NCBI GenBank assembly: GCA_018814825.1
Contig: JAHIYJ010000055.1
Span: 1 to 34,779, forward strand
DNA: 34,779 nucleotides
Reading direction: 5' to 3'
DNA from: Candidatus Omnitrophota bacterium
GTDB lineage: Bacteria > Omnitrophota > Gorgyraeia > Gorgyraeales > Gorgyraeaceae
The notes beneath the pieces were generated by a model. The model was not told the DNA's origin. It did no database searches and saw nothing but the letters and a program-made list of their open reading frames with translations. Positions 200 through 34,779 of this stretch are shown here, one piece after another. Within the stretch, counting starts at the first letter, position 1; the number at the start of each line of letters is the position of its first letter. Position numbers and translations under genes: made by a program.

Positions 200-1669
200 T
201 TATCTTACTCGCCAAACTGTTCCATCCTTAGTATCTTCTAGTATAATCCCTTTCTTATCTAAATCCTGTCTGATCCTGTCCGCTTCCTTAAAATCTTTTT
301 TCTCCCTGGCCTTTTTTCTTAATAGGATCAATTCCTCGATTTCCTTTTTTGATATCGGCGCCTTTTTCTCTTCAAACGCCAAACCAAAAACAGAAAACAT
401 CTCTTCCATCGCTTCCGCGGTATGACGCAGTATAAAATTCTTTGATTCATCTTTGCTTTCCAGCAATATATTACATCTATTGACCATGTCAAAAAGGACC
501 GCCAGCCCTTTAGGAGCGTTGAAATCGTCATCCATGGCCTCTTCGAATCGCTTTTTAAAAGAATCCTCTAGGCTAGAGACTGTAGGCTGTAGGGATTTTT
601 TCACCTTGAGCCTTGAGCCTTGAGTCTTGAGTCTGTTTAATCTTTCTATTAATATATTTATGCGGTCATATACCTTTTTTGCCTCTTCCATCTTCTCCCA
701 CGAAAAATCGACCGGATGGGAATAATGCGTCTGTAAAAATAAGATTTTCAGGACATCAGCCGGATAGCTCTTCAAGACCTCCTCTATCGTGACAAAGTTC
801 CCCAGTGATTTAGCCATTTTCTCTTTATCTATGGTCAAAAGCCCGTTGTGTATCCAAAAACGGGCGAACTTCTTGCCCGCGCCCTCTGACTGCGCGAGCT
901 CATTTTCGTGGTGCGGGAAAATAAGGTCTATCCCGCCGCCGTGTATGTCAAACTCATCTCCAAGGATATCCGAACTCATCACCGAACATTCTATATGCCA
1001 GCCGGGTCTGCCGGGCCCCCAGGGGCTGGGCCACGAGATTTCGCCTTCCTTTGCCGATTTCCACAGAGCGAAGTCAAGAGGATCTTTTTTGTTTTCTCCA
1101 GGAGAAACTCTTGACCCGTACGAAATCTCTGATTTTCGTACGGGCCTTGCCCCGGATTCCAGCATCTCAAGGCTTTGATTAGAAAGTTTTCCGTAATCCC
1201 TGGCCTTCTTTACGTCAAAATACACGTCCCCGCCTGATTCATAAGCCGCACCCCGCTCAATCAATATGCCTATAAAATCCTGCATCTTTTTTATATATTC
1301 CGTAGCCTTTGGCTCCTCATCAGGACGCAAGATACCCATTTCATCCATGCGCTTATGATAAACATCCAGGTATTTTTTGGAAACCTTCGCCACGGCTAAA
1401 GTTATGTCCTCATCCTTAAATTCCTCTCTGGCCTTATTTATTATCTTATCATCCACGTCAGTAACATTACGGACAAATCTTATCTTATATCCTTTATCTC
1501 TGTATTTGTATAAAAAATACCTGCGGATCACGTCAAACACATAGGCGCTTCTCACGTGGCCTATATGAGGGACATCATAGACCGTGGGGCCGCACACGTA
1601 CATGCTGATTGCCTTCCCGTCCGGCCTAAAGTCTTCTTTTTTCCTTGTAAGGGTATTATATATCTTCAT
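200..1669 (-). CDS. cysS: Cysteinyl-tRNA synthetase with repeat-derived insertions
   Basis: Class I aminoacyl-tRNA synthetase that charges tRNA-Cys. Signatures are in order: YVCGPTVYD with zinc-ligand Cys26, HIGH at 35-38, WHIECS, GGGIDLIFPHHENE, KMAKS (the KMSKS loop) and EAMDDDFNAPK. Its 489 residues are slightly longer than usual. Two stretches look foreign: residues about 176-187, encoded by a palindrome at 1110-1149, interrupt the GAR-V-xPGENKKDPLDF region; a linker before EAMDDDFN is encoded by heptamer arrays at 568-634. Both leave the frame intact and avoid catalytic motifs, so the enzyme is probably active. It starts 14 bp after ispF, as part of the B. subtilis-like yacL-ispD-ispF-...-cysS order. 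Confidence 0.95.
   Translation of the reverse strand: MKIYNTLTRKKEDFRPDGKAISMYVCGPTVYDVPHIGHVRSAYVFDVIRRYFLYKYRDKGYKIRFVRNVTDVDDKIINKAREEFKDEDITLAVAKVSKKYLDVYHKRMDEMGILRPDEEPKATEYIKKMQDFIGILIERGAAYESGGDVYFDVKKARDYGKLSNQSLEMLESGARPVRKSEISYGSRVSPGENKKDPLDFALWKSAKEGEISWPSPWGPGRPGWHIECSVMSSDILGDEFDIHGGGIDLIFPHHENELAQSEGAGKKFARFWIHNGLLTIDKEKMAKSLGNFVTIEEVLKSYPADVLKILFLQTHYSHPVDFSWEKMEEAKKVYDRINILIERLNRLKTQGSRLKVKKSLQPTVSSLEDSFKKRFEEAMDDDFNAPKGLAVLFDMVNRCNILLESKDESKNFILRHTAEAMEEMFSVFGLAFEEKKAPISKKEIEELILLRKKAREKKDFKEADRIRQDLDKKGIILEDTKDGTVWRVR
568..634. repeat. Two heptameric tandem arrays inside cysS
   Basis: 568-595 reads CTAGGCT AGAGACT GTAGGCT GTAGGGA, and 604-631 reads CCTTGAG three times then TCTTGAG. 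Both have a strict 7-bp period and differ in unit sequence. They encode part of the linker TQGSRLKVKKSLQPTVSS, ahead of the conserved EAMDDDFN block of CysRS, a region of variable length in the family. Confidence 0.8.
1110..1149. repeat. In-frame palindromic insertion in cysS with 4-bp flanking duplication
   Basis: Perfect 11-bp arms CCCGTACGAAA (1115-1125) and TTTCGTACGGG (1134-1144) enclose an 8-bp loop. The palindrome lies between two copies of CTTG (1110-1113 and 1146-1149), so one unit is 36 bp, or 12 codons. Deleting one unit gives ESGARVSPGENKKDPLDF, the ordinary CysRS sequence. The inserted peptide is about PVRKSEISYGSR. Confidence 0.85.
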
Positions 1670-2992: not shown

Positions 2993-4011
2993 CAATTTCT
3001 TTTATTCTTATTTAAATCCGCCGGTAACTTACCGAATATCATCCTGCCGGCTGCGGTTTGGAGTACGCTTCCCACGACCACGCGCACATTCTGCCCTATA
3101 AGTCTCCTGCCGTTATCCACCACCACCATGGTGCCGTCCTCAAGATACCCTACCCCCTGATTGTACTCCTTGCCTTCTTTTATCAATCTTATGTCAAGTG
3201 TCTCTCCGGGGAGCACCACAGGCCTTAAGGCATTGGCCAGTTCATTCACGTTTAATACGCTCACGCCCTGTATCTCGGCTATTTTATTGAGATTAAAATC
3301 GTTGGTAAAGACCTTCGCGCCCAGGACCTTCGCCAGCTTGACTATTTTTGCGTCCACCTCTTTTAAATCAGCAAAATCCTCATTGTGTATCTTTATGTCT
3401 ATATTAGGATTTTTCTGGAGTTTCCCTAGTATGTCCAGGCCACGTCTCCCGCGCGCACGTTTTAAAGAATCGCTGGAGTCCGCTATCTGCTGCAGTTCCT
3501 TTAGCACAAAACGCGGGACAATGAACTTGCCGTCCAAAAATTTAGTACTGCATATATCGGCTATGCGGCCGTCTATGATAACGCTCGTGTCAAGGACAAC
3601 CAGCTCGTCCTTCTGGTCCTGCCTTGAAAACTTCACATACGGGACAATGATGTTAAACTCGTCTCTCCCGCGTATAGCCACTATCATACCGAGATAACAA
3701 AATACCAGCGTAAGCGCCACGCGCAATGAGTAAAAGACAGTTTCATCAATATGAATGAGCGCTAGAGTATCTGAAACCAGTTTCGCCATTATAAGACCGA
3801 ATATCAGACCGAACACAGCTGATGAAAGGCCCCTTACCGAGACCTTTCTCATTATAAACTCAAATAATATTATTATCGCGGCCGCCACAAAGCCTATCAC
3901 TCCGCCCAGCCTGCTGAAATCAGCGTTATCTATATGGACAAATGAGCCTATCTGGTTGCCCACAACCACGCTGAGTATGATGAAAAAAACACGTATAAAT
4001 ATTAACGTCAT
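2992..4011 (-). CDS. yacL: YacL-type membrane-anchored PIN-TRAM domain protein
   Basis: 339 residues. The N-terminal third has about four hydrophobic helices (residues about 1-110), starting [23 protein letters not shown] nuclease domain follows, beginning [17 protein letters not shown] (acidic residues in DTSxxIDGR), with [20 protein letters not shown] and later [15 protein letters not shown]. The C-terminal TRAM domain includes [17 protein letters not shown]. The family is B. subtilis YacL, whose exact role is unsettled; PIN domains are usually Mg-dependent ribonucleases. In B. subtilis yacL likewise precedes ispD and ispF. It starts 4 bp after mlaD and overlaps ispD by one base. Confidence 0.88.
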
Positions 4012-17685: not shown

Positions 17686-17763
17686 TATCAGCTATCAGCT
17701 ATCAGCTATCAGCTATCAGCAAAACATTTAAAACTGATAGCTGAAGACTGAAAGCTGAAAGCT
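17686..17763. repeat. Head-to-head heptamer hairpin between secA and lnt
   Basis: Five perfect TATCAGC units (17686-17720), an A-rich spacer, then the complementary family ACTGATA GCTGAAG ACTGAAA GCTGAAA GCT (17733-17763). The two arms can fold on each other. The array fills the whole 83-bp gap, starting 2 bp from the lnt ATG and ending 3 bp before the secA stop. Confidence 0.88.
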
Positions 17764-27789: not shown

Positions 27790-29418
27790 TCATATGTAAA
27801 AATGACCGAATTTGAGGCCGGCGAAGAAATCTGCCAGGGCGAAAATAACATTGCAGCACAAATTATTCGCCGACACCAGCACCCCTGCCGCAAAGTCCAT
27901 CCATCCAAACAAAAGAAAGACCAGGCCGGATATCAGCGATACGAACAAAGCGGGTATTATCAAAAGGTTGGCTATAACGGCGACTGGCGTAACTATCTTG
28001 AAATAGTACACTATTAATGGCGAAGTCCCGATCCAGGCGGCCAGAGAGACAGCGAACGGCGCAAGGAAGAATCTGTTTATAATAAAATTTTTCTCCGTCT
28101 TTATCAGGTTCAAAAATAAAGGGGCTAAAAATATTATTGATAACACGGCGACAAACGAAAGCTGAAAACCCACATTGAATACGTCATGAGGATTCCTTAT
28201 CAATATAAAAAGTGCCGCCATGGCGACAGAATTACTTATGTCTATCTTCTTGCCCAGTAAACGTCCTATAAAAAAGAGCACTACCATGACTGTCGCCCTG
28301 ACTACCGAAGGGCGGGATAGGGCGAGCATGGCGAAAAACACAATGAATAATATGGTCAGGATATAAGCGGCCTCTCTTTTCATCCTGAAAAACCTGAATA
28401 GATACAGGAGGGCCGCGGCGACAAGCCCCACATGCAAACCGCTTATAGCCATAATATGATAAACCCCGCAGTTTTTGAAGGCGGTTTGTAGATGCTTTGG
28501 TAATTCAGAGCGATCTCCGAGAAGAATAGCACTCAAAAACGCTCCACTCTCAAGAGGCATTTTTTCAAGGATTTGGTTCTTGAGTTTCTCTCGGATTAAA
28601 TATGTATATTTTAGAATAGGATTTGATCTGTAGTTATGCGATAAAAGTGTTATGTTGTTTTCTTTTGTGTTTATAACTGCAAATATATTCTGTCGCTCAA
28701 GGTATTCACGGTAGTTGAAATCGCCTTTGCGCAACCTAAACCCCGTACCAAATTTTACAACTTCAAAGATTTGGTACGGGGTAAAGGTTGCGGCTACCTT
28801 ATCATCATTGGTTGCGGAAACATCACCATTATCGGTAGCCGCAGGCTTTAGCCTGCGAGAAATGGGCCTCTTTACCGTCCCCCTCACAACCAACCTATCC
28901 CCATACCCATAATCTTTTTCTGTCTGGATCCTGATCTGAGCTAAACCCTTTACATCCCGCCAATCGTCTTCTTCCTTTATCGCCTCTATCTCAAATAGAT
29001 ACATAGAATTAATCTTCCCATAATAGGGTTTCCGAGTCAAAACAGGACTCTTTATAACTCCGACTATACCTGTCTTAAGTTTTTCTTCTCCCAGAAAATG
29101 GCTAATATGATGTTTGGGGAATATATTGGAATTAATATATAGAAGTGCTGCAAATGAACTAACCGATAAAACCAGGAAAATATTGGCTATCTTTTCCCGC
29201 ATTGTAGGGGTTCGATTCATCAAACCCGAAACCTCTGGTTCGGACGCGATACCCTTGCGGGCATAAGTAAATCGCGCCCCTACAATAAAGGAAGAAAGGA
29301 TAAAAACTAACGTGATTATGGATATATGAAGGAATTTAATTGAATCAGGAAGAAATCGAACTAAGATTATCCCTAATATAAAGAAAATGGCGATTACTGC
29401 AAGCGGTCTTTTATCCAT
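27790..29418 (-). CDS. comEC: ComEC/Rec2 DNA-uptake channel protein without the metallo-beta-lactamase domain
   Basis: Inner-membrane channel for single-stranded DNA in natural transformation. The 542 residues comprise N-terminal helices with a DUF4131/OB-like segment, then the Competence domain: ILLGDRSELPKHLQTAFKNCGVYHI and AISGLHVGLVAAALLYLF, with many helices to the end. The usual C-terminal metallo-beta-lactamase domain is absent. Residues about 44-73 and 188-229 derive from palindromic elements read in frame; around them RPISRR and RKGDFNYREYLERQNIFAVI are normal family sequence. It lies 171 bp from the giant upstream gene and 75 bp from bamD. Confidence 0.9.
   Translation of the reverse strand: MDKRPLAVIAIFFILGIILVRFLPDSIKFLHISIITLVFILSSFIVGARFTYARKGIASEPEVSGLMNRTPTMREKIANIFLVLSVSSFAALLYINSNIFPKHHISHFLGEEKLKTGIVGVIKSPVLTRKPYYGKINSMYLFEIEAIKEEDDWRDVKGLAQIRIQTEKDYGYGDRLVVRGTVKRPISRRLKPAATDNGDVSATNDDKVAATFTPYQIFEVVKFGTGFRLRKGDFNYREYLERQNIFAVINTKENNITLLSHNYRSNPILKYTYLIREKLKNQILEKMPLESGAFLSAILLGDRSELPKHLQTAFKNCGVYHIMAISGLHVGLVAAALLYLFRFFRMKREAAYILTILFIVFFAMLALSRPSVVRATVMVVLFFIGRLLGKKIDISNSVAMAALFILIRNPHDVFNVGFQLSFVAVLSIIFLAPLFLNLIKTEKNFIINRFFLAPFAVSLAAWIGTSPLIVYYFKIVTPVAVIANLLIIPALFVSLISGLVFLLFGWMDFAAGVLVSANNLCCNVIFALADFFAGLKFGHFYI
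28454..28840. repeat. 387-bp segment duplicated at 34393-34779
   Basis: Bases 28454-28566 (113 bp) equal 34393-34505 exactly, and 28730-28840 (111 bp) equal 34669-34779 exactly. The 163 bp between them differ at many positions, mostly conservatively (for example AVINTKENNI versus ALINTRENNV), with no indel. The right identical block is the palindrome cluster and ends at the last base of the window. Confidence 0.9.
28731..28857. repeat. Cluster of three palindromes inside comEC
   Basis: 28731-28791: inner arms CCCCGTACCAAAT and ATTTGGTACGGGG extended outward by CAACCT/AGGTTG. 28791-28841: CGGCTACC and GGTAGCCG. 28840-28857: CGCAGGCTTTAGCCTGCG, a perfect palindrome apart from its centre. All are read as protein (residues about 188-229), a low-complexity stretch containing AATDNGDVSATNDDKVAA that typical ComEC proteins lack. 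Confidence 0.85.
29201..29286. repeat. Palindromic insertion near the comEC N-terminus
   Basis: Outer arms ATTGTAGGGG (29201-29210) and CCCCTACAAT (29277-29286) are perfect. An inner pairing of GACGCGAT (29243-29250) with ATCGCG(CC) (29271-29278) exists. It encodes about 28 hydrophilic residues (including ARKGIASEPEVSG) between two hydrophobic segments. Confidence 0.78.
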
Positions 29419-34348: not shown

Positions 34349-34779
34349 TTTTAAGTGAATAATTAAGTTTTTTCGTGTTTTGTACTGGCAAGATATGATA
34401 AACCCCGCAGTTTTTGAAGGCGGTTTGTAGATGCTTTGGTAATTCAGAGCGATCTCCGAGAAGAATAGCACTCAAAAACGCTCCACTCTCAAGAGGCATT
34501 TTTTCTAAAATCTGATTTTTCAATTTCGCTCGGACTGAGTAAATATATCTCAGGAGAGGATTTGATTTGTAATTGTGGGATAAAAGCGTTACATTGTTCT
34601 CTCTTGTATTTATAAGAGCAAATATATTCTGCCGTTCGAGGTATTCCCTGTAGTTAAAATCGCTTTTACGCAACCTAAACCCCGTACCAAATTTTACAAC
34701 TTCAAAGATTTGGTACGGGGTAAAGGTTGCGGCTACCTTATCATCATTGGTTGCGGAAACATCACCATTATCGGTAGCC
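34317..34779 (-). pseudogene. comEC: Truncated second comEC copy (cut by window edge)
   Basis: Reads from the window end through the same palindrome cluster, then RKSDFNYREYLERQNIFALI to AFKNCGVYHI, in the comEC frame. After GVYHI the similarity ends abruptly (base 34393) and 18-20 unrelated residues (LPVQNTKKLNY...) lead to a stop, so the channel domain is lost. Alignment to comEC is gap-free at an offset of 5939 bp. It is a partial duplication, or a fragment of a strain variant joined in assembly. Confidence 0.8.

Follow-up and report, generated by a model that had tools for sequence, protein, structure and literature searches.

The window analysed here, i.e. the whole stretch of 34,779 nucleotides of a Candidatus Omnitrophota genome (the source genome, G000), contains two genes, cysS and comEC, that carry in-frame members of one family of palindromic elements. 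The features concerned are given below by their positions in the window.

200-1669, minus strand: cysS, cysteinyl-tRNA synthetase (CysRS), 489 aa, interrupted in frame by a palindromic element
605-634, minus strand: heptamer array (CTTGAGY)n, CTTGAGCCTTGAGCCTTGAGTCTTGAGTC, in frame in cysS, in a loop at about residues 345-355
1110-1113, plus strand: left copy (CTTG) of the target-site duplication
1114-1145, minus strand: 32-bp palindromic element ACCCGTACGAAATCTCTGATTTTCGTACGGGC, with one CTTG adding 12 residues
1146-1149, plus strand: right copy (CTTG) of the target-site duplication
27790-29418, minus strand: comEC, 542 aa, likewise carrying a family copy in frame
28741-28781, minus strand: 41-bp family member CCCCGTACCAAATTTT...AAGATTTGGTACGGGG in comEC, nested in the palindrome CGCAACCTTTAGGTTGCG
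34680-34720, minus strand: identical 41-bp copy in a second, partial comEC at the contig end, flanked by TAAA at 34676-34679 and 34721-34724

The product of the cysS open reading frame matched the Pfam model tRNA-synt_1e (1.4e-119), its catalytic core (the HIGH-like PHIGH, KMAKS and the Zn ligands) is preserved in the sequence, and a genome-wide search of G000 for CysRS returned the window gene as the single strong match. A sequence-only reading of this DNA had described a hairpin with perfect 11-bp arms between two CTTG copies, forming a 36-bp unit of 12 codons. Both its coordinates and the complementarity of its arms were confirmed: positions 1110-1149 read CTTG-ACCCGTACGAAATCTCTGATTTTCGTACGGGC-CTTG, with the arms CCCGTACGAAA and TTTCGTACGGG at 1115-1125 and 1134-1144 enclosing an 8-nt loop. 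The element and one CTTG add residues about 176-187 of CysRS (RPVRKSEISYGS), and deletion of these 12 residues gives GARVSPGENKKDPLDF, the standard CysRS sequence, as the same reading had proposed. Exactly these 12 residues are missing at the insert in all 29 aligned CysRS relatives (48-68% identity over the aligned region), and the solved CysRS 8qhp has a 12-residue gap at this position too. The closest relatives (e.g. G007 and G005) have GGGGCAAGG with a single CAAG (plus-strand CTTG), where G000 has CAAG-element-CAAG. The additional claim that an essential gene carries a palindrome read as peptide holds in so far as cysS is single-copy and the element lies in frame, while translation itself is inferred. 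The cysS hairpin is thus an insertion, probably of a mobile element, and seems to be read as a loop of 12 residues that does the enzyme no harm, its neutrality being likewise inferred in the absence of transcript or protein data.

An 11-bp inverted repeat is by itself unremarkable, and it is the copy number that makes this one significant. While the 30-bp hairpin of cysS occurs once in the window, allowing for up to three mismatches, the similar palindromes anticipated elsewhere in the genome were found: the core pattern GTACSAAA..TTTSGTAC has 15 matches in G000 as opposed to one for the reversed control, and two further matches to it lie inside the window at 28742-28780 and 34681-34719. In-frame copies were identified in cysS, comEC, valS, purL, aroA and two minor pilin genes of G000, as well as in tsaD, leuS and waaA of G005. 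The 41-bp copy in comEC is flanked by TAAA (coding strand TTTA) at 28737-28740 and 28782-28785; the arrangement is CGCAACC-TTTA-element-TTTA-GGTTGCG, and its reconstructed empty form CGCAACCTTTAGGTTGCG is a perfect palindrome. Judged from its sequence, this copy is a nested insertion in an older palindrome. The second comEC copy, with the same nested repeat, is truncated at the contig end (34001-34779), which might reflect a duplication or an assembly effect. On contig 6 of G000 (L259, 952-1992), two adjacent minor pilin genes are each interrupted in frame by a member of the family right at the prepilin motif, a 65-bp copy with duplicated TTTA in the first gene and a 104-bp copy with flanks TTCG/TTCA in the second, where the N_methyl model match follows the insert. 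In the first pilin (KLGF-TPFQ...GMGF-TLLELMIG) the duplication regenerates GF before TLLEL, and we infer that the pilin insert would be cut away together with the leader by prepilin peptidase.

The family is defined by terminal inverted repeats with CCCCGTWCSAAAT at both ends (CCCC..GGGG ends), and its members span 29 to 105 bp according to half-site searches and the stretches retrieved, the 29-bp ones being little more than two abutting termini. A sibling class has a uniform length of exactly 100 bp in several genera; none of its six frames is free of stops, and its tandem arrays have a period of exactly 104, i.e. 100 + 4. The census of copies rests on pattern searches and retrieved stretches. 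Most copies are in G000, G003, G005 and G006, which belong to one GTDB family, and the named carriers are Candidatus Omnitrophota MAGs. A search with a 14-base terminus across the class gave single matches elsewhere, and single elements with duplications were present in one Nomurabacteria contig as well as in G027 and G029, genomes of other families. A strict pattern, which overlooks some variants, among them the G003 and CGTTCC ones, matched 2 of 384 Omnitrophota genomes. When 84,980 species genomes were scanned for the exact pattern, matches besides two Omnitrophota genomes were excluded from the statistics except for the Nomurabacteria contig; those in Mycobacterium, a Planctomycetota, Anaerobiospirillum and Ornatilinea looked unrelated. 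The Nomurabacteria contig (MFVS01000022.1, L075) holds similar elements at 1732-1767 and 3657-3734, the latter, of 78 bp, with a TCTA duplication. No publication on such elements in Omnitrophota was found in a literature search that did not cover subscription journals.

Flanking sequences were compared for 65 non-redundant elements, namely those outside the CCTTGTC heptamer context, with the nested 41-bp copies collapsed to one; these are not fully independent, as some have flanks in common. The flanking 4-mers were identical in 24 elements and unequal in 41, as compared with a mean of 2.15 identical pairs (maximum 8) when the right flanks were permuted in 10,000 trials. All 24 duplicated 4-mers, comprising 13 different sequences, fit YNNR. 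The identity of the flanks is a target-site duplication, and of the flanking repeats of 4-5 bp that had been expected only the 4-bp length was met, identity reaching 5 bp in none of the 65 elements. The expectation of 3n lengths was borne out for copies inside genes but does not always hold outside them (33, 42, 100 bp).

In G003 a unit CCTTGTC..CCTG-CCCCGTACGAAATCTTTGATTTTCGTATGGGG-TCCCTTGTC, heptamer repeats included, is present in about 27 copies. Two of these (L155, L243) lie outside recognisable genes, and 25 are genic and occupy 21 sites in a total of 18 conserved genes assigned by Pfam: waaA, genes for a 4Fe-4S protein, HlyD and a SPOR protein, polA, tsaD, a HypF-like gene, tgt, fabD, ligA, an aconitase-family gene, a gltD-like gene, valS, hisH, aroA, pyrD, an ETF subunit gene and leuS. 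Every one of the 25 genic copies is in frame without stops, and finding all 21 sites in frame has a probability of about 1e-10 under random frame. One and the same strand of the unit is used throughout, the genic copies (loci L119-L159) being uniform in orientation, with CCTG invariably at one end of the element, and it is read in all three frames, as DPIRKSKISYGAG in 12 copies, TPYENQRFRTGQ in six and GPHTKIKDFVRGRQ in seven. The opposite strand has a stop in one of its three frames, and this, together with the hydrophilic peptide encoded by the strand in use, may account for the bias, although this is an inference. With its flanking heptamers included, the unit shows no 4-bp duplication and may have spread by another mechanism.

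Structural models were used to locate the inserted peptides. The AlphaFold2 model of CysRS (29 sequences) had a mean pLDDT of 88, with values below 50 only at 177-188, the palindrome peptide, and at 352-355, the heptamer-array peptide. In the AlphaFold2 model of AroA, the three inserts (143-157, 312-339 and 420-448) all scored below 50 and were predicted as loops of an otherwise well-predicted fold. PDB homologues of AroA, TGT and ValRS have gaps at the insert positions; for LigA the alignment of the insert to its PDB homologue was less clean. According to these models, the peptides of these genic inserts fall in disordered surface loops. Furthermore, the same loop holds different repeats in different genera, as seen between G003 and G005 in tsaD, waaA and, twice, leuS, and between G000 and G003 in aroA (twice), valS and comEC. 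The tsaD loop at the insertion is variable in all relatives, and permissive loops therefore collect insertions. The same hot-spot pattern was reported for the Rickettsia palindromic elements (RPE) RPE-4/6/7 (PMC3767692).

The insertion relative to homologues, the 4-bp duplications, the multi-copy family and the in-frame state in many core genes are direct observations, as is the loop placement within the models. On this basis we consider it likely, with a probability of roughly 0.7, that the hairpin in cysS represents a MITE-like element, non-autonomous and very short, that duplicates a 4-bp YNNR target, is moved in trans and is translated as a loop in its genic copies, where the transposase, translation and neutrality are inferred. 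An element with CCCCGTWCSAAAT terminal inverted repeats and no gene of its own would most likely depend for its movement on a transposase acting in trans, one whose 4-bp staggered cuts duplicate the YNNR target. Insertions in genes would persist only where insert and duplication together keep the frame, bring in no stop and leave the fold intact, and a hairpin in a disordered surface loop would then be translated as a protein segment. Staggered cutting by a transposase characteristically leaves a duplication of fixed length, here 4 bp, and such an enzyme is favoured chiefly on that ground, although it was not found. Nor was there an inverted CCCCGTWCSAAAT pair 0.5-5 kb apart, as sought for an autonomous element, among the matches listed from seven draft genomes. 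As a caveat on cut-and-paste, 29-33 bp is very short for a double-strand mechanism; the short forms may have arisen by internal deletion or may move by another route.

Such deletion could also have taken place within cysS. An element of about 100 bp would have inserted there and lost its interior, selection keeping the deletions that restored an open frame, so that 32 bp would not be the size at insertion. The 100-bp elements are indeed abundant in G000, G003, G005 and G006, with the same termini, duplications and stops in all frames, and intermediates of 38-78 bp occur. However, short copies of different genes and genomes have the specific core AAATC-NNN-GATTT in common, and the approximately 27 near-identical 32-bp copies of G003 suggest spread at the short size, and we therefore regard shrinkage in situ as unlikely, without dismissing it. 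Less still speaks for REP-like hairpins moved as single strands by a tyrosine transposase of the IS200/RAYT type (Y1) that recognises the hairpin and a tag (CCTG). The family resembles REP sequences (20-40 bp) in consisting of short dispersed hairpins that are sometimes tagged at one end: CCTG/CAGG is found there in 16 of the 65 elements, only one of which has the duplication, and in nearly all G003 copies. Moreover, Y1_Tnp genes were present in 35 of 39 genomes searched, and a degenerate hairpin of the element type lies about 100 bp from a RAYT gene of G003 (L068), a weak association. Unlike REP sequences, the elements carry no GTAG or CGTC tag, RAYT genes are generally not flanked by hairpins (19 of 20 loci have none of this kind nearby), and an exact 4-bp duplication flanks 24 copies, whereas to our knowledge Y1 single-strand transposases do not duplicate their target. 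Mobilisation by such an enzyme is thus improbable.

Two further explanations would deprive the insert of its place in the protein or of its mobility. Hairpin bypassing elements have been described for some yeast mitochondria, and small hairpins in essential genes are their typical setting, so that the cysS insert might be removed from the RNA or skipped by the ribosome and be absent from the protein. Bypassing would lift selection on the frame, yet none of the genic G003 copies is out of frame or carries a stop; a search of Rfam with the element gave no match either, and this possibility appears very remote. To a purely local origin of the cysS palindrome by slippage or template switching, its likeness to the other copies being due to chance, we give next to no credence. 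Chance 11-bp inverted repeats do occur in 35 kb, the window holding three perfect pairs besides the cysS hairpin, but the excess of the core pattern over its control and a near-identical palindrome in the same reading frame in tsaD of another genus argue against it.

The MITE-like element favoured here has the terminal inverted repeats of bacterial MITEs (CCCCGTWCSAAAT at both ends) and a target duplication of fixed length (exactly 4 bp in 24/65), lacks a gene of its own and is sometimes found in frame in genes. It differs from Correia/NEMIS, RUP and ERIC, which typically measure 100-200 bp and end in 5'-TA-3' (PMC2229807), in its CCCC..GGGG ends, its 4-bp YNNR target and its length down to 29-32 bp. 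Palindromic elements of Rickettsia and Wolbachia are multi-copy, inserted in frame in housekeeping genes at non-structured segments, and orthologous sites can hold different repeat groups (PMC3767692, PMC2229807, PMC10969869, PMC2996958). The comparison with these elements drawn in the sequence-only reading stands for behaviour, both being palindromes in frame within conserved protein genes, and fails for membership. RPE are about 100-150 bp long, while the Omnitrophota genic copies are mostly 29-68 bp (32 bp in cysS, with the 104-bp pilin copy of G000 as an exception); the CGTC tag of some RPE, RPE-4 and RPE-6 (PMC3733652), is absent from the listed flanks of the Omnitrophota elements; RPE belong to Rickettsiales, and Table 1 of PMC2229807 gives their target duplication as unknown, in contrast to the 4-bp duplication demonstrated here. 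The Omnitrophota element works like an RPE but is not one, as judged by length, tag and lineage without a comparison of RPE sequences. Outside Rickettsiales, Methanocaldococcus jannaschii has palindromic repeats with coding potential (Suyama et al. 2005, cited in PMC2996958 and PMC2229807), which are reported to be likewise fused in frame into protein genes, albeit in an archaeon.

The protein-coding palindromes known so far are those of Rickettsia and Wolbachia and the M. jannaschii repeat (PMC2229807, PMC10969869, PMC2996958), mostly from host-bound organisms and with their mode of insertion left open. Short mobile DNA apparently builds protein segments in Omnitrophota as well, as described earlier in Rickettsia; new are the shorter length in most genes, the lack of a CGTC tag, the host phylum and the demonstrated 4-bp duplication. 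In a probably unrelated phylum the same outcome is accompanied by a clear 4-bp duplication, and relatives show both empty and filled sites; therefore the insertion mechanism, and the notion of mobile palindromes as a source of new protein segments, become directly testable. Tentatively, and short of even confidence, we propose that the protein-coding mobile palindromes of one Omnitrophota family, in which they are widespread, form a class of their own, with transposition that creates a 4-bp YNNR duplication, sizes down to about 30 bp, recurrent loop extension of essential proteins and, in G003, a heptamer-joined unit that uses all three frames of a single strand. For annotators and structure modellers, repeat-derived loops in core enzymes of these genomes call for caution. 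Other repeats were noted in passing. Hairpins CCCCATACC...GGTACGGGG abut the apparent 5' end of a tRNA gene on contigs 68 (L129, 1038-1087) and 49 (L135) of G000, and between two genes of the window, at 17688-17763, the heptamer array CAGCTATCAGCTATC is accompanied by a large imperfect inverted repeat.
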